64,000 nt of DNA from Nitrosospira sp. (GTDB lineage: Bacteria; Pseudomonadota; Gammaproteobacteria; Burkholderiales; Nitrosomonadaceae). Made by a program: the position numbers and the translations under genes. Positions 19,982 to 26,664 of the stretch are shown here, piece by piece. The notes beneath the pieces are model-generated. The model had not been told where the DNA came from and made no database searches. It worked only from the letters and a program-made list of their open reading frames with translations. The stretch spans positions 1 through 64,000 of the forward strand of contig JACDGV010000003.1 in NCBI GenBank assembly GCA_013821425.1. Direction: 5' to 3'. Within the stretch, counting starts at the first letter, position 1. Every line of letters starts with the position of its first letter.

Positions 19982-20657
19982 CGCGATGCATCCAGCAGCC
20001 TCCTGTCCATCCGACAGGGCGGGGTAAAGTGATGAGGGGCACGCCCTTGGCATATCAAACCCTCACGAAGCGTCTTTGTTCCCTCAATCTCAAGTAGTTT
20101 CGGCGGATTCAGGAAATCAATAAAAGAGCGGAGCAACTGAAAAATTCAGAGACGTGCGACAGGGCTTTCGTTCCGCATCACCCCAGGTTGGAACGCAGGC
20201 GAAAGCGGGGCCGCGGCTCCTTGCGTAGACAAGTGAGGAACCTGCAAGCTTCAGGGCTTCCTTAGCTGCAAAGTAACCGCCGTCTTCTATTTTGCCATTC
20301 ATCATCTCAACAGTTCAAATATCAACGGTTCAAATTGATTTAACTCGAGCTGTGTTATAAACTGGCATACGTTCCCTGTTGTTCCCTGTTCCCTCGTGGG
20401 TCCTCGGGTCCTCGTATCGTATCCTCGATGGTCTCCTGTTTTTTGCAACTTTTCCGCGATCTGCGGCCTTCATCTGATTACATTGGTAACCCTTCGTCGC
20501 GGGTGGTCAATCGGTAGCGCTGTTCATTGCAGTTTCCGTGTGAGAAATACAATCCGCGGTTGTGACAATCGATACGGCACTCCTAATACTTAAGCAGCGG
20601 CATGTCCTCAACGTGTTAGCAACATGCTTATATCGACCGATTGCTGATATTCTTCCT
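19982..20657. other. Gene-poor interval before the KaiC island
   Basis: About 676 bases with no gene I can support. It holds a short hairpin (20002-20018), one copy of a TTCAGGGCTTCCTTA motif (20250-20264) that recurs elsewhere in the window, and a low-complexity run at about 20371-20430 built from GTTCCCT and TCCTCG repeats. The promoter of the signalling operon is probably in the last part, but no clear element is seen. Confidence 0.4.
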
Positions 20658-21080
20658 ATGGAAACCCATAACCTCCTCCGACATCAGTTGATTAAAAGTC
20701 TAATGGTGCCGCCCCCTGAGAGACCTGCCGACGCCGCCATCGCCGTGTGGGAGCAAATGGCGACCCAAATCATTTCGATTGTCGGAGAAGATGGATTCAA
20801 TGCGCTGTTCGCAAGAACCCTATTCCTGAATCAGGCGGCATTTCCCTGGCTCGCCTCCAGCCTACAGGCACCCCGGACTGAGTACCGCTTTGCCGACCTG
20901 CAAACGAGCCTTGAAGCACAAACCCCCGCGCAAGCCAGCGAAGCAAGCAGTCTGCTGCTGATCACTTTCACCGACGTCCTGGCCTCGTTAATTGGCGAGC
21001 AGTTAACGACCCGTATTTTACGTTTGGCTTGGAGCAACAACATTTCGAATAAGGCCGAAAAGGAGTTCAAAAATGAGTGA
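20658..21080 (+). CDS. Small helical protein of unknown family, upstream of KaiC-like ATPase
   Basis: I do not recognise a named family. From the ATG at 20658 it has 140 residues, mostly helical and soluble, with a motif QMATQIISIVGEDGFN, then ARTLFL and FPWLA. A paralogue at 24532 shares these motifs and aligns from this same Met, which supports the start; a GTG at 20562 would add 32 residues. No strong ribosome site is visible for either. Its 3' end overlaps the start of the kaiC-like gene by eight bases, so it is almost surely made together with the ATPase and may be its partner or regulator. That role is inference from position. Confidence 0.65.
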   Translation: METHNLLRHQLIKSLMVPPPERPADAAIAVWEQMATQIISIVGEDGFNALFARTLFLNQAAFPWLASSLQAPRTEYRFADLQTSLEAQTPAQASEASSLLLITFTDVLASLIGEQLTTRILRLAWSNNISNKAEKEFKNE

Positions 21081-22575
21081 AAAGGTAAGCATACGTTGCC
21101 TGCCATCCGGCGTACCGGGTTTGGACAACCTGTTGGGCGGAGGCGTGCCGGAATTCTCGTTCAACCTGATCGCGGGTACGCCGGGAAGCGGCAAAACCAC
21201 GCTCGCTCACCAGATCATGTTCTCGCTGGCGAAGCCGGATAATCGGGCGCTGTTCCTCACGGTACTTGGGGAACCCCCTTTGAAGATGCTGCGTTATCAA
21301 CAGCAATTTGAGTTTTTTGACATCAATAAAATCAATGAATCGATCCGCTTCGTCAACCTGTCCGCGGACCTCCTGAAGGGAGACTTTGACGGTGTAATGT
21401 CACGCATTGCCGAAGAAGTGAAAGGCTATGCGCCGACCCTTGTATTTGTTGATTCGTTTCGATCCGTCGTGCAGTCAGCGAATCAAGGGAGGGAGGATGT
21501 GCCTGAACTGCAGCGGTTCATCCAGCAACTGGGCATGCAAATGACGAGCTGGCAGGCAACAACATTTTTAATCGGTGAGTATCTGACGGCGGAAGCAGCG
21601 TCAAGCCCTATCTTTACCGTGGCGGATGGCATCCTGTGGCTTTCACAAAATTTGCATCGCAACTCCGTGGTGCGCAAGATACAAGTGGTCAAAATGCGTG
21701 GTCAAGCGCAGGTACCAGGTTTGCATACATTCCGTGTTAGTGATGAAGGAATTCACGTTTTTCCGCGTGCGATTGTCCAATCGGGCACAGCGGCTGAGTT
21801 GGCAACTCAGTTGGCAACCGAGGCAGCCACTGGCCAGAAACGTGTTTCTATGGGAATACCTGGCCTGGATGAAATGCTGGGTGGCGGCTTGCCGGTTGGA
21901 TATTCGCTACTCGTGGTGGGACCATCCGGTTCCGGAAAAACCATAATGGCGACGCAATTTCTCGCCGAAGGTGCACGCAGGGACGAACCCGGCGTGATTG
22001 CCGCGTTTGAGAAGAGCCCCAGCCAACTGCTGAATAATAAGCTGCATGCGCTGGTCGAAGCAGGACAAGTGGGGGTGATCAACACGCGTGCCTTGGATCT
22101 GTCGATTGATGAAACCTTGCATGATTTAATCAAGACGATTGATCGATTGCAGGCAAAGCGCGTTGTTATCGACTCCTTGTCTGGATTTGAGCTGGCACTG
22201 GCGCCCGAATTCAGCGAAGATTTTCGCGGATCGCTTTACAGGATGATTGCCGAGCTTACTGCCAAAGGCATGACCATACTAATGATCGCGGAACTGGAAG
22301 ACCGCTACACCGATTTGCGCTTTAGTCCCTATGGGAGCGCTTTTCTCGCTGACGCAATTATCGTGCAGCGCTATATCGAAATCGCAGGCCAACTCAGACG
22401 CGCCTTCTCGGTCGTGAAAGTCCGCGGCAGCGAGCACAGCAAGGACATTCGATTGCTTAAGATTACAGACGAAGGCATCAGTGTCGGCGAGGCTTTGTCT
22501 GGTTATGCCGGAATCCTGTCGGGCCGACCCATGGGTAGTTGCCGGCTGGAAGTACCGGGTGAGGGAAGGCCGTAA
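21073..22575 (+). CDS. KaiC-like double-domain RecA-fold ATPase
   Basis: This 500-residue protein has two KaiC/RadA-type ATPase domains. Domain 1 opens with GVPGLDNLLGGG and Walker A GTPGSGKTT (35-43); domain 2 with GIPGLDEMLGGG and GPSGSGKT. By my recollection of cyanobacterial KaiC, the catalytic Glu pair reads Gly-Glu in domain 1 (VLGEPP) and Glu-Lys in domain 2 (AFEKSP), and the Ser/Thr phosphorylation pair before TDTII is replaced by Ala-Phe in AFLADAII. It therefore resembles the non-clock KaiC group of bacteria. It is coupled to the small gene upstream (8-base overlap) and to the kinase downstream (1-base overlap), which suggests a three-protein signalling unit. Confidence 0.9.
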   Translation: MSEKVSIRCLPSGVPGLDNLLGGGVPEFSFNLIAGTPGSGKTTLAHQIMFSLAKPDNRALFLTVLGEPPLKMLRYQQQFEFFDINKINESIRFVNLSADLLKGDFDGVMSRIAEEVKGYAPTLVFVDSFRSVVQSANQGREDVPELQRFIQQLGMQMTSWQATTFLIGEYLTAEAASSPIFTVADGILWLSQNLHRNSVVRKIQVVKMRGQAQVPGLHTFRVSDEGIHVFPRAIVQSGTAAELATQLATEAATGQKRVSMGIPGLDEMLGGGLPVGYSLLVVGPSGSGKTIMATQFLAEGARRDEPGVIAAFEKSPSQLLNNKLHALVEAGQVGVINTRALDLSIDETLHDLIKTIDRLQAKRVVIDSLSGFELALAPEFSEDFRGSLYRMIAELTAKGMTILMIAELEDRYTDLRFSPYGSAFLADAIIVQRYIEIAGQLRRAFSVVKVRGSEHSKDIRLLKITDEGISVGEALSGYAGILSGRPMGSCRLEVPGEGRP

Positions 22576-24110
22576 TGAACAAAAATGACAATGATGGCGC
22601 CTCCGATACGGATAATCCGGTTATCGATGAGCCAGATCAAGCGGGCTTGTCAAGTCAGCGCAAAGATGGGCTGCCAGCTTTACGGGAAAAAGATATTACA
22701 CGCAGGGAAAGAGCTGTCGTTGACGATAAAGCGGCTGTCCGGCGGCGCGAGAAATTGGTCTTGCGAAGAGAAGACGCGGTAGAGCTTCGTGAACAAGCTG
22801 CCGGCTCTCGTCAAGACACTGTCAATTGGCGCGAAATCCCAGCCGCGAGCGAGCGGATACTTCTCGAGATAGAGACGGGACAGGCAGCCTCCGAAGATCG
22901 GCTGGTTATGATGCGGCAAGCGAATTCACAGCTGATCGTCTCTGGAATTGAGGCTGGGCGAGCCAGTCAGTTGAAGGACGAGTTTCTAGCACTCGTCTCC
23001 CATGAACTCAGGACTCCCTTAAATGCCATCCTGGGATGGTCGCAGCTCATCCTGGGGGGAAAGATGGGGCAAGAGGATATTCATAAAGGCATGCAAATCA
23101 TCGAGCGTAGCGCTCGCGCCCAGAACAAACTCATTGAAGATATTCTCGAAATCAGCAGCATGATTGCTGGCAAAGTACGGCTCGACATGCAGCAACTGGA
23201 TATAGCCAGTCTGGTGAGCGCAACGGTTCAGTCAGTGAAACCAATGGCGGAAACCAAAGGAATTATTCTGCAAGAAACGATTGATCGCGGAGCCGGGTGG
23301 ATATCGGGTGATGTCAACAGGCTGCAGCAGGTTTTCTGGAACCTTCTTTCCAACGCAATAAAATTCACGTCCCCGAGCGGAAGAATAGACATTGTTATGA
23401 AGCAGTCAGGTTCGTTTCTCGAAATCAGGATCAATGATTCGGGCTTGGGTATATCAGCCGACTTTCTGCCCTATGTGTTCGATCGCTTCCGGCAAGCTGA
23501 AACTTCACTTTCGCGACAGCACGGAGGACTCGGCTTAGGCCTTGCCCTCGTCAAGCAGTTAGTGGAACTGCATGGCGGAACGGTCCGGGCAGAAAGTGCA
23601 GGGCTGAATAAAGGAGCTTCATTTATTGTACAACTGTCGCTTGCCGCCGCTAGCGATGAAAAGACACAAGAAAAATTGTCTTCTGTGCACAGTTCCTTCG
23701 ACGGAGAAAAATTTTCACTCTCAGGAATAACGGTGTTAGTGGTTGACGACGACTTGGACGGATGTGAACTCGTCAAACAAATGCTAAGTCATTGTCAAGT
23801 CAGTGTGATCACATCCGCGAGTGCGATGGAAGGATTGCAGCTTTTGAAGATGGAGAGCCCGGATGTTCTCATCAGCGACATTGAAATGCCAGGCAAGAAT
23901 GGGTATCAATTCGTTCGGGAGGTGAGGGAGCTTCCTGCCGAGAACGGCGGCAAAACCCCTGCCATCGCACTCACGGCATGTGCTCGCCCGGAAGATAAAA
24001 TTAGTGCCATGAATGCCGGTTTCCAAGAGTACCTAACCAAGCCGGTGGAAGCATCGGCCTTGGTTGCAACCATTCGAAGTCTGGTTGGACAACACCGTAA
24101 ATCGAGTTAG
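22575..24110 (+). CDS. Hybrid histidine kinase with coiled-coil N-terminus and receiver domain
   Basis: This is a soluble 511-residue kinase. Residues 1-30 are acidic and polar; about 35-95 form heptads that mostly begin with Arg-Glu (REKLVLR, REDAVEL), a likely coiled coil; a MMRQANSQLIVSGIEAGR linker follows. The HisKA domain has its phospho-acceptor at H143 (VSHELRTPLN), then HATPase N box NLLSNAIKF and G boxes DSGLGIS and GLGLGLAL. The C-terminal receiver has DDD, phospho-acceptor D435 (ISDIEMPG) and the Lys in YLTKPV. No membrane or PAS segment is seen, so the input may come from the KaiC-like ATPase, whose stop codon overlaps this start. The first 30 residues and the stalk are paralogous to the protein at 24866. 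Confidence 0.9.
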   Translation: MNKNDNDGASDTDNPVIDEPDQAGLSSQRKDGLPALREKDITRRERAVVDDKAAVRRREKLVLRREDAVELREQAAGSRQDTVNWREIPAASERILLEIETGQAASEDRLVMMRQANSQLIVSGIEAGRASQLKDEFLALVSHELRTPLNAILGWSQLILGGKMGQEDIHKGMQIIERSARAQNKLIEDILEISSMIAGKVRLDMQQLDIASLVSATVQSVKPMAETKGIILQETIDRGAGWISGDVNRLQQVFWNLLSNAIKFTSPSGRIDIVMKQSGSFLEIRINDSGLGISADFLPYVFDRFRQAETSLSRQHGGLGLGLALVKQLVELHGGTVRAESAGLNKGASFIVQLSLAAASDEKTQEKLSSVHSSFDGEKFSLSGITVLVVDDDLDGCELVKQMLSHCQVSVITSASAMEGLQLLKMESPDVLISDIEMPGKNGYQFVREVRELPAENGGKTPAIALTACARPEDKISAMNAGFQEYLTKPVEASALVATIRSLVGQHRKSS

Positions 24111-24531
24111 CCGCCGTGATGCGCAAACAACGCTACTGTGCTCTGTCCCTGCTGTCACTCCTATTCCCTTCATTTGATCTAGTGCAATGTCGCATTAGCT
24201 TTCCTGCGGAGTTTCGATGGAATGAGAGAACCGTCACAACCGACGCCGAAATAATGCTCCACAAAGGGACGTTCATTTGATTGGGTCCGGGTTAAGCACA
24301 AGATCAATCCTTCATGACGTTATTTTCCAATCGGTGGAGTAAGCAAATGAATTTACAGCTGCAGGGATCTCTATAGTGCGAGTGACTGGCTTCGGGCAAC
24401 AAAATGTTATCGCCCCACACCTGTAAAATTCTACAGCTATTCAGAGAGCTAACTGCATGATGTAATGAGATTGCTGCCATCTCACATCTCAAGTGGATAG
24501 TGGCGATTCTGAAAGACTCTCGGCACTCTCT
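24111..24531. other. Gene-free interval between the two signalling modules
   Basis: About 420 bases without a supported gene. The final bases before 24532 resemble those before 20658 (CTCTCTATG against CTTCCTATG), so the left limit of the duplicated segment is close to the start codon. A GTG at 24493 could extend the next gene by 13 residues, but the first copy does not share that extension. Confidence 0.4.
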
Positions 24532-24879
24532 ATGAAAACCAGCCACCTGCCACGACACCAGATAATTAAAAGTCTCATGGCACCGCACACTGAGAACGTT
24601 GCGGATGTCTCGATTAATTTATGGGCACAGATGGCGACCCAGGTCATTTCGATCGTCGGTGACGATGGTTTCAATTCACTTTACGCGAGAAGCATATTCC
24701 TGAGCCGGTCAACATTTCCCTGGCTCGCGCCCAGCCCATTGGCACCGCAGACTGATCACCGGTTCGCGGGATTAAAAATGAGCTTCGAAGAACAAACCCC
24801 CGCGCAAGCCAGCGAAGCAAACAGTCTGCTGCTGATCACTTTCATCCGGGTGATGGAAGGCCGAAATGAACAAAAATGA
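24532..24879 (+). CDS. Truncated second copy of the small helical protein
   Basis: This 115-residue protein aligns with the one at 20658 over its first hundred or so residues: HQIIKSLM, QMATQVISIVGDDGFN, FPWLA, QTPAQASEA and SLLLITF. After that Phe the match stops: the last 36 residues of the first copy are replaced by IRVMEGRNEQK. These come from the tail of the kaiC-like gene read in another frame, because kaiC has been removed. The gene runs 14 bases into the next one. Whether the shortened protein works is unknown. Confidence 0.6.
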   Translation: MKTSHLPRHQIIKSLMAPHTENVADVSINLWAQMATQVISIVGDDGFNSLYARSIFLSRSTFPWLAPSPLAPQTDHRFAGLKMSFEEQTPAQASEANSLLLITFIRVMEGRNEQK

Positions 24880-26050
24880 CAATGATGGCGCTTCCGGTAC
24901 CGATGACTCTGATATTAATACGTCAGGTCAACCGGACTCGCCGGGCCAGCACAAAGATGGGCTGCCAGCTTTAAAGAAAAAGGATTTTACACGCAGGGAA
25001 AGCACTGTCGCTGACGATGAGGCGGCTCTTTTGCGCCGCGAGAAGTCCGTTACTGCACGAGAAGATGCCGTGCATTTGCGTGAGAAGGCTATCGTCGCGT
25101 GCGACAATGCTGCCGCCGGGCGTGAACATGCTTCCCATCTGCGCGAGGCAGCGGTGCTGGCACGGGAAGAACAAGCCCATGGGCGTGAAGGGAAAGCCGC
25201 GGGGCACGCGGGGGAAATTCACACGGCAGGTACGATAGAGGCCGCCTCGAGCGATCCGCTGACGATGATGCGGGCGGCGAACGCTCAGCTGGTCATCTCG
25301 GCAATTGAAGCACACAGGCTGACCGAGCAAGTGGAAGCAGCCAAAACCCAGCTGCATCATCTGGCCCATCACGATGTTCTCACCGGTTTACCTAATCGGT
25401 TGCTTCTACAAGACCGGCTTGGCCAGGGGATCGAGCTGGCCCGTCGTCAGGGCAAACGTCTTGCAATACTATTCTTTGACCTGGATCGATTCAAACACAT
25501 CAACGACTCCCTGGGCCATACCGTTGGCGACCAGCTACTGCGATCGGTTGCACAACGGGTGGCAGCTTGCGTGCGTCACTCGGATACCGTCAGCCGCCAG
25601 GGCGGCGATGAATTTGTAGTGTTGCTTTCCCATATGCAGCAAACGGAAAACGCGGCACTCATTGCACAAAAAATACTGGCTGCGGTGGCTGTGCCACACT
25701 TCTTCGATGAGCACGAGCTCCACGTGTCGGCGAGCATGGGCATCAGCACGTATCCTGACGACGGTCAGGATGCGGAAACGCTGATCAAGAACGCGGACAC
25801 CGCCATGTACTGCGTCAAGGAAAATGGAGGCAGTAATTACAAATTCTTCGTGCAGGAGATGAATGTTCGGGCCGTCCGGCGTTTGTCCACGGAGAGCAGC
25901 CTGCGTACCGCACTGGAACGACGGGAATTCGTGCTGCATTACCAGCCGAAAATCGATCTTCACACCAATATGATCATCGGGGCCGAGGCGCTCATTCGCT
26001 GGCAGCATCCGGAACTAGGGCTGTGCCGCCCTCTCAGTTCGTGCCCATAG
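24866..26050 (+). CDS. GGDEF-EAL protein, N-terminal part (frame broken in the EAL domain)
   Basis: The N-terminus copies that of the kinase at 22575 (MNKNDNDGAS, DGLPAL, FTRRES) and continues as about ten heptads starting with Arg-Glu, three more than the kinase, then MMRAANAQLVISAIEAHR. The diguanylate cyclase domain is intact: LTGLPNRLLLQDRL, FDLDRFKHINDSLGH and RQGGDEFVVLL. The EAL phosphodiesterase domain starts (GAEALIRWQHPELGL) but the frame leaves the family after that Leu and stops 8 residues later. The rest of the EAL domain is in the next frame from 26023. Restoring one base near 26022 (CTG-GTG-CCG instead of CTGTGCCG) would give one 600-residue protein. Confidence 0.85.
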   Translation: MNKNDNDGASGTDDSDINTSGQPDSPGQHKDGLPALKKKDFTRRESTVADDEAALLRREKSVTAREDAVHLREKAIVACDNAAAGREHASHLREAAVLAREEQAHGREGKAAGHAGEIHTAGTIEAASSDPLTMMRAANAQLVISAIEAHRLTEQVEAAKTQLHHLAHHDVLTGLPNRLLLQDRLGQGIELARRQGKRLAILFFDLDRFKHINDSLGHTVGDQLLRSVAQRVAACVRHSDTVSRQGGDEFVVLLSHMQQTENAALIAQKILAAVAVPHFFDEHELHVSASMGISTYPDDGQDAETLIKNADTAMYCVKENGGSNYKFFVQEMNVRAVRRLSTESSLRTALERREFVLHYQPKIDLHTNMIIGAEALIRWQHPELGLCRPLSSCP

Positions 26051-26664
26051 CCGAGGACTGTGGCCTCATCCTGCCGATCGGCCGCTGGGTTCTGCGCGGG
26101 GCCTGTTTGCAGGCCCGCGCCTGGCGGGAGGCCGGCTTGTTGCCAATTACCGTCGCGGTGAACACATCCGCCCGCGAGTTCGGCGCGACAGACTTTCTGG
26201 AGAACGTGCGCGCGACACTGAAGGAAACCGGCCTTGAGCCGTGTCGCCTGGAACTCGAACTGACAGAAAGTATTCTTATGCACGACGCGGCATTGAAAGA
26301 TTCAGTACTGCACGCGTTGGCAGACCTGGGTGTAAAGCTGGCAATCGATGACTTTGGTACCGGCTATTCCAGCCTGAGTTATTTGCGGCAATTTCCGATC
26401 CATACCCTGAAGATCGATCAATCGTTCGTGAGCCGAATGAGCAGCAATCCCGACGATGCCACTATTGTCAGTGCCATTATCGGCATGGGCAGGAGCCTCA
26501 AGCTCCGCGTCATTGCGGAGGGAGTGGAAACACCAGAGCAATCCGCATTTCTCTTGGCCCAGCACTGCGATGAAGGCCAGGGCTACTATTTTAGCCGTCC
26601 GGTGGGGGCGGAGGCCTTCGCCACTTTGCTTCAAACTGGCATTTCATCCACCCTCTGCATTTGA
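26023..26664 (+). CDS. EAL domain, C-terminal fragment of the frameshifted GGDEF-EAL protein
   Basis: Read from a GTG at 26023, this 213-residue fragment has the rest of the cyclic-di-GMP phosphodiesterase: [51 protein letters not shown] and AEGVETPEQ. The EAL Glu itself is in the upstream fragment, so this piece alone should not be active. No ribosome site is evident. It is best read as the tail of a gene broken by a one-base deletion, or as a sequencing error. Confidence 0.8.
   Translation: MPPSQFVPIAEDCGLILPIGRWVLRGACLQARAWREAGLLPITVAVNTSAREFGATDFLENVRATLKETGLEPCRLELELTESILMHDAALKDSVLHALADLGVKLAIDDFGTGYSSLSYLRQFPIHTLKIDQSFVSRMSSNPDDATIVSAIIGMGRSLKLRVIAEGVETPEQSAFLLAQHCDEGQGYYFSRPVGAEAFATLLQTGISSTLCI

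Follow-up and report, generated by a model that had tools for sequence, protein, structure and literature searches.

The closest described systems to the locus considered here are built around KaiC proteins. One is the cyanobacterial KaiABC clock, the KaiC of which carries a residue pair that is numbered S431/T432 in the excerpted texts of PMC5520375 and PMC3164672. Another is the third, or 'black', kaiC context which, in its excerpted portion, the Ramlibacter tataouinensis paper (PMC3164672) describes from Proteobacteria, i.e., a KaiC encoded beside histidine-kinase or GGDEF/EAL genes. A legend within that same excerpt gives 'AF' among the residue pairs of this third group.

The present locus is from Nitrosospira sp. 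(Nitrosomonadaceae), contig JACDGV010000003.1 of GenBank assembly GCA_013821425.1. The term 'window' is used here to mean the whole stretch of DNA that was analysed, that is, 64,000 nucleotides, contig positions 1 to 64,000. Two related modules are found within the window, termed copy 1 and copy 2. Copy 1 consists, in order, of a small gene, kaiC, and a kinase-receiver gene:

20658-21080, forward strand: copy 1 small gene, encoding a 140-amino-acid, predicted all-helical protein
21073-22575, forward strand: copy 1 kaiC, encoding two KaiC domains, with both Walker A motifs present
22575-24110, forward strand: copy 1 output gene, encoding an N-terminal shared segment plus HisKA, HATPase_c, and receiver domains (Pfam)

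The end of the small gene is overlapped by the start of kaiC at 21073. No Pfam or NCBIfam family is matched by the copy 1 small-gene product, and the structure model from which the all-helical prediction derives (mean pLDDT 81.6) has 26 Foldseek matches up to E 10 but none up to 0.001. In the copy 1 KaiC, the counterparts of cyanobacterial S431/T432 are A-F, and AF is seen at this phosphorylation pair in 60 of 63 aligned rows, among which six repeat a locus already listed. The nearest solved structures to this KaiC are cyanobacterial and other clock KaiCs. A search of its own genome for KaiB (PF07689) gave 0 matches, the control being positive in 6 of the 14 genomes, including Synechococcus elongatus. 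Other matches to the KaiC family model in its own genome reach 41 bits at most, far below the 138 bits of this KaiC. The copy 1 output gene, 22575-24110, looks like the shared N-terminal segment fused to a resident Nitrosospira-type hybrid kinase. Resident hybrid kinases that resemble its kinase part (about residue 121 onward) are present in 23 of 23 searched genomes, at 70% at best among the matches listed of that reach. For the kinases which follow KaiC in most other loci, identity with this gene is 28-36% only.

Copy 2 consists of a truncated small gene (24532-24879) and then a GGDEF-EAL gene (24866-26664, in two frames):

24532-24844, forward strand: copy 2 small-gene remnant, i.e., the first 104 codons, with the frame staying open to 24879 via foreign sequence (115 amino acids)
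24844-24846, forward strand: deletion join, the T at 24845 having no partner on either side of copy 1
24846-24863, forward strand: kept kaiC end, 17 of 18 bases identical to 22555-22572, with purine-rich GGAAGG before the next gene
24866-26050, forward strand: 5' part of the copy 2 output gene, encoding the shared N-terminal segment, a complete GGDEF domain (RHSDTVSRQGGDEF), and the EAL start, in a 394-amino-acid frame
26023-26664, forward strand: remainder of the EAL domain, read in a different frame, with one base fewer than six relatives near 26,020

Copy 2 is very probably a deletion derivative of an intact small gene–KaiC–GGDEF-EAL module, most likely a redundant one in decay. That copy 2 carries a deletion scar of about 1.58 kb was proposed in an earlier note on this DNA, and indeed both flanks match copy 1 while the middle is missing. 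To the left, 20656-20970 corresponds to 24530-24844 (242 of 314 aligned bases identical; local alignment), confirming that the small-gene match ends at 24844 and 20970. To the right, homology restarts at 22555 in copy 1 and at 24846 in copy 2, with 163 of 205 bases identical over 22555-22759 and 24846-25050. The pairwise alignment thus does find the kaiC 3' end in copy 2, matching 22555-22572 as had been said, though at 24846-24863 rather than one base earlier (24845-24862); the remaining coordinates of the earlier note are correct. Together with the bases which follow, this kaiC end is identical to copy 1 at 44 of 46 positions, which excludes a chance match. Elsewhere in the window, on both strands, the 18-mer recurs at 14 or more of 18 bases at two places only, 52215 (14) and 54479 (15). 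In copy 1 these 18 bases are the end of kaiC in frame; among relatives kaiC often stops earlier, their place then being partly spacer.

With copy 1 as the ruler, the missing length is 1,583-1,584 bases. Equivalently, the third-gene ATG is reached 1,604 bases on from 20971 in copy 1 but after 21 bases in copy 2, and from the break point to the third-gene start it is 1,579-1,593 bases in six relatives. Lost, as the earlier note had it, are the small-gene tail and nearly all of kaiC, with the kept kaiC end and the relatives in agreement on this. The remnant small-gene frame adds 11 foreign residues and comes to its stop 14 bases beyond where the start codon of the next gene begins. In terms of predicted structure, the copy 2 small protein keeps residues 1-104, is cut inside the helix spanning 90-112, and is missing the helix spanning 114-129. 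It loses 5 of the 15 columns which are invariant in 35 relatives, i.e., in an alignment (A2) that used 35 of the 47 rows initially given.

The microhomology that had been suggested for the join, ACCG, is rejected. ACCG is present at both of the corresponding positions of copy 1, but had the join passed through a shared ACCG it would be TTTCACCGGG, whereas copy 2 has TTTCATCCGGG, within a join sequence that reads CATCCGGG. Among relatives the left side of the break is CACC, TACC, CATT, or AACY, and on the right there is little conservation (in relative G003, GATCTGGG). Zero to two shared bases at the join is at most possible, a figure that rests on guessed ancestral ends. The deletion, of about 1.58 kb, would then have come about by end-joining or replication slippage involving little or no homology. 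It would have removed small-gene codons 105-140 along with nearly all of kaiC, fused the small-gene stump to the last approximately 18 bases of kaiC, and spared both the ribosome-binding sequence and the start codon of the GGDEF-EAL gene.

The earlier note had the copy 2 match continuing into a kinase start. What is matched is the third gene's N-terminal segment, and the copy 2 gene is not a kinase, with Pfam finding GGDEF plus EAL. The outputs of the two copies share this N-terminal segment only (43% identity over 194 aligned positions). The EAL domain of copy 2 is split by a one-base frameshift (within 26000-26050) relative to six of six intact relatives, such that the disabling lesions in copy 2 are a truncated small gene, an absent kaiC, and a frameshifted EAL domain. 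The GGDEF and RxxD motifs nevertheless are intact, and the GGDEF-EAL gene retains its start codon and reading frame along with GGAAGG. Against the six relatives, pN/pS for the copy 2 GGDEF domain is 0.23-0.31 versus 0.15-0.25 for well-separated relatives among themselves, and for its EAL domain is 0.21-0.22 versus 0.23-0.33. In a quick tree the end branch of the copy 2 GGDEF domain is 0.24, like those of G003 (0.26) and G014 (0.19). As the GGDEF part shows no clear release from constraint, either decay may be recent or the GGDEF part may still be in use.

The frameshift in the GGDEF-EAL gene, as a second lesion within the module, is what makes decay of a redundant module the likeliest reading. 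The ancestor of copy 2 would have encoded a small helical protein, a KaiC ATPase, and a GGDEF-EAL protein bearing the shared N-terminal segment. Presumably this module was redundant beside copy 1, which would still have been supplying KaiC and the small protein, and perhaps for that reason the deletion was tolerated. The one-base frameshift in the EAL part would have come afterward, probably with loss of function. The species is represented by one genome.

The two modules had been described as a duplicated module, which is apt so far as they are a related pair but not in the sense of a recent, like-for-like duplication, as their outputs differ and their small genes are only about 76% identical, arguing against fresh tandem duplication. 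At the DNA level the copy 2 small gene is closer to those of G003 (83%) and G020 (81%) than to that of copy 1 (76%). Given this, along with the differing outputs, the two modules are an old paralogous or instead separately acquired pair.

Sequence homology shared with relatives breaks off at about 19995 and is picked up again at about 26913. At 20 relative sites, drawn from the 22 other genus genomes (G009 left out and G015 without a nuoN match), nuoN is followed by a sugar dehydrogenase and htpG, with no small gene or KaiC there, so both modules are an addition at this place. Two of the 20 sites have an unrelated-looking GGDEF-EAL match (43-47%). Downstream of nuoN in G012 and G013 there is also a second, partial nuoN-like stretch (L085 1466-2065 and L086 1457-2056; 73-78% identity). 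Upstream of copy 2 one further feature is seen:

24420-24445, forward strand: copy 2 upstream element, its 26 bases recurring unchanged upstream of the G003 small gene

Included is a CTGT-N8-ACAG dyad (CTGTAAAATTCTACAG, 24421-24436), which is found as well 5' of the G003 small gene and, as a variant, in G001. This dyad we take to resemble a LexA box. Exact matches in the window number 1 versus 0.46 expected, with 2 of 64 upstream regions having it, and an SOS-like dyad upstream of copy 2 is thus a lead only.

The small gene was found in 8 of 23 genus genomes, its own included, by DNA search, and in 9 of 125 family genomes by protein search. Nine modules could be read in seven relatives, and in nine of nine KaiC follows the small gene. 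Three of these consist of the small gene and KaiC alone, behind apparent sensor and regulator genes. The other six (G003, G020, G001, G014, G013b, G012b) run from the small gene through KaiC to GGDEF-EAL without a break. The earlier note had proposed checking related genomes for a full second kaiC; within these six same-genus modules KaiC does lie between small gene and GGDEF-EAL gene. It is with these six that the copy 2 GGDEF piece groups (SH-aLRT 99; quick tree of 34 rows, excluding second listings L099, L111, and L133 as well as L101 and L147). The small-protein tree, from which L099, L100, L106, L111, L133, L055, L149, and L152 were left out, is poorly resolved. It places copies 1 and 2 within a nine-row genus group (support 90/86, not starred), outside of which fall genus rows G012b and G013b. 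Rows nearest to copy 2 by path include L119 and L102, which are not from Nitrosospira, and no starred set holds copy 2.

More broadly, in 57 of 61 loci the small gene is immediately followed by KaiC (52 of 55 from named genomes, plus G003, G001, G013a, G013b, and copy 1). The four without a full KaiC there are copy 2, L136 (kaiC cut after about 50 codons), L152 (contig end), and L149. At L149 (3117-4272) the small gene is interrupted after about 96 codons by an apparent IS5-like transposase gene, and no KaiC is found downstream. The 55 loci, from one scan of named genomes, are mainly of Beta- and Gammaproteobacteria (Nitrosospira, Nitrosomonas, Methylobacter, Thiobacillus, Gallionella, Nitrotoga, Rhodoferax, and others), with one bin named Rhizobium. 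After KaiC, among 52 loci of which several are cut by contig ends, the output is GGDEF-EAL only in 21, kinase only in 15, both in 8, and neither seen in 8. Across L098-L152 a conserved unit can be recognized, consisting of a small helical protein, a KaiC without the phosphorylation residues of the clock, and outputs with one N-terminal segment in common, with kinase and GGDEF-EAL outputs alternating or co-occurring. The two-output operons were considered as older cases of the same kaiC loss, an idea rejected as a search for a second small gene between the outputs of these 8 one-KaiC operons gave nothing at E below 1e-3 (weak hits there have E 0.37-0.38).

Among alternatives the best placed, though improbable, is that the join arose between different modules of a longer array, or through exchange with copy 1, with more or other DNA having been lost and with gene conversion from copy 1 perhaps touching both flanks. 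Copy 2 is in fact most like copy 1 right beside the join (53 of 55 bases to the left, the above-noted 44 of 46 to the right), with identity lower further out (185 of 258 left, 119 of 159 right), and discriminating sites near the join lean to copy 1 on both sides for G003, G020, and G001. The 55- and 46-base limits were picked after looking, however, and column shuffling gives p of 0.017 to the left and 0.21 to the right. The left stretch, moreover, is equally unusual versus G003 and G012b (p of 0.004 each), so that its likeness may in part be general conservation, and for G014 on the right there is no significant lean (p of 0.42).

A somewhat more doubtful idea is that a two-output KaiC system has been oppositely resolved among Nitrosospira lineages, with the kaiC deletion then a rewiring that left behind a KaiC-free cyclase. 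Among the 23 genomes searched, matches to the copy 1 kinase that reach into the shared segment are found in G020 and G001 only, covering residues 38-39 to 360-362 at 70-71% with one stop. At the DNA level these fragments are 84% (over 842 bases; G020) and 86% (over 775 bases; G001) identical to the window. They are without a receiver, have neither small gene nor KaiC nearby, and are about 8 kb (G020) and 6 kb (G001) from intact KaiC–GGDEF-EAL modules. Their positions are L171 4677-5615 (G020) and the reverse strand of L172 (G001). These fragments fit such an opposite resolution, two lineages being few. If true, then this strain would have kept KaiC plus kinase while cutting off the GGDEF-EAL arm, and G001 and G020, in which the same kinase type survives as a fragment only, would have kept KaiC plus GGDEF-EAL.

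Slightly less probable again is functional rewiring of copy 2 as such, i.e., a deletion kept because it freed the GGDEF protein with its shared segment from KaiC. Translation may then stay coupled given that the small frame ends 14 bases inside the GGDEF start, and the frameshift would yield a GGDEF-only diguanylate cyclase. Consistent with rewiring are the preserved start codon, GGAAGG, and frame, the intact GGDEF and RxxD motifs, and a protein branch length that is not raised. Removal of most of the EAL domain by the frameshift nonetheless argues against it, as does a slightly raised GGDEF pN/pS and the lack, among 61 loci, of any other such kaiC-less case, and a recent loss would look alike.

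An assembly error, with two similar kaiC copies collapsed, is very unlikely. In its favour, the assembly comprises 66 contigs and likeness between the copies peaks next to the join, but a collapse needs a shared word at the break and 0 of 12 12-base words across the join recur in the window, while the second lesion in copy 2 better fits real decay. The opposite history, in which the ancestor was a kaiC-less small gene–output pair and kaiC came into copy 1 later, has nothing for it beyond the bare difference between the copies and can be given next to no credence, with a full-length small gene directly followed by KaiC in those 57 of 61 loci, copy 2 itself carrying a kaiC end, and the copy 2 small protein lacking conserved residues. 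The direction thus is one of loss, for which one event suffices where gain would need many. The earlier note had likewise thought kaiC insertion in copy 1 the less likely, and to the kept kaiC end the relatives now add independent evidence.

Copy 2 is useful also as a natural experiment. That is, copy 1 and the intact relatives show the usual partners of a KaiC without phosphosites, and copy 2 is the output arm without KaiC, so that what the shared segment and small protein contribute to coupling can be tested.

With the KaiABC clock this locus thus has in common the KaiC fold and two ATPase domains. It differs in having no KaiB match, A-F at the S431/T432 positions, and another kind of output, and membership in a KaiABC circadian clock is rejected as both KaiB and the Ser/Thr pair of the CII domain are missing. 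In its residue pattern and neighbourhood, by which it is placed, the copy 1 KaiC agrees instead with the third kaiC context of PMC3164672 as excerpted. Common to both are the lack of the usual phosphorylation pair, no KaiB found, and a kinase, receiver, or GGDEF/EAL gene nearby; the excerpted description has no small helical gene, no N-terminal segment common to both outputs, and no loss of kaiC. From ordinary bacterial deletion and pseudogene formation, i.e., the same low-homology join and then a frameshift in the same unit, copy 2 does not differ in kind. The scar itself is ordinary, and the interest lies in the surrounding, little-studied KaiC family.
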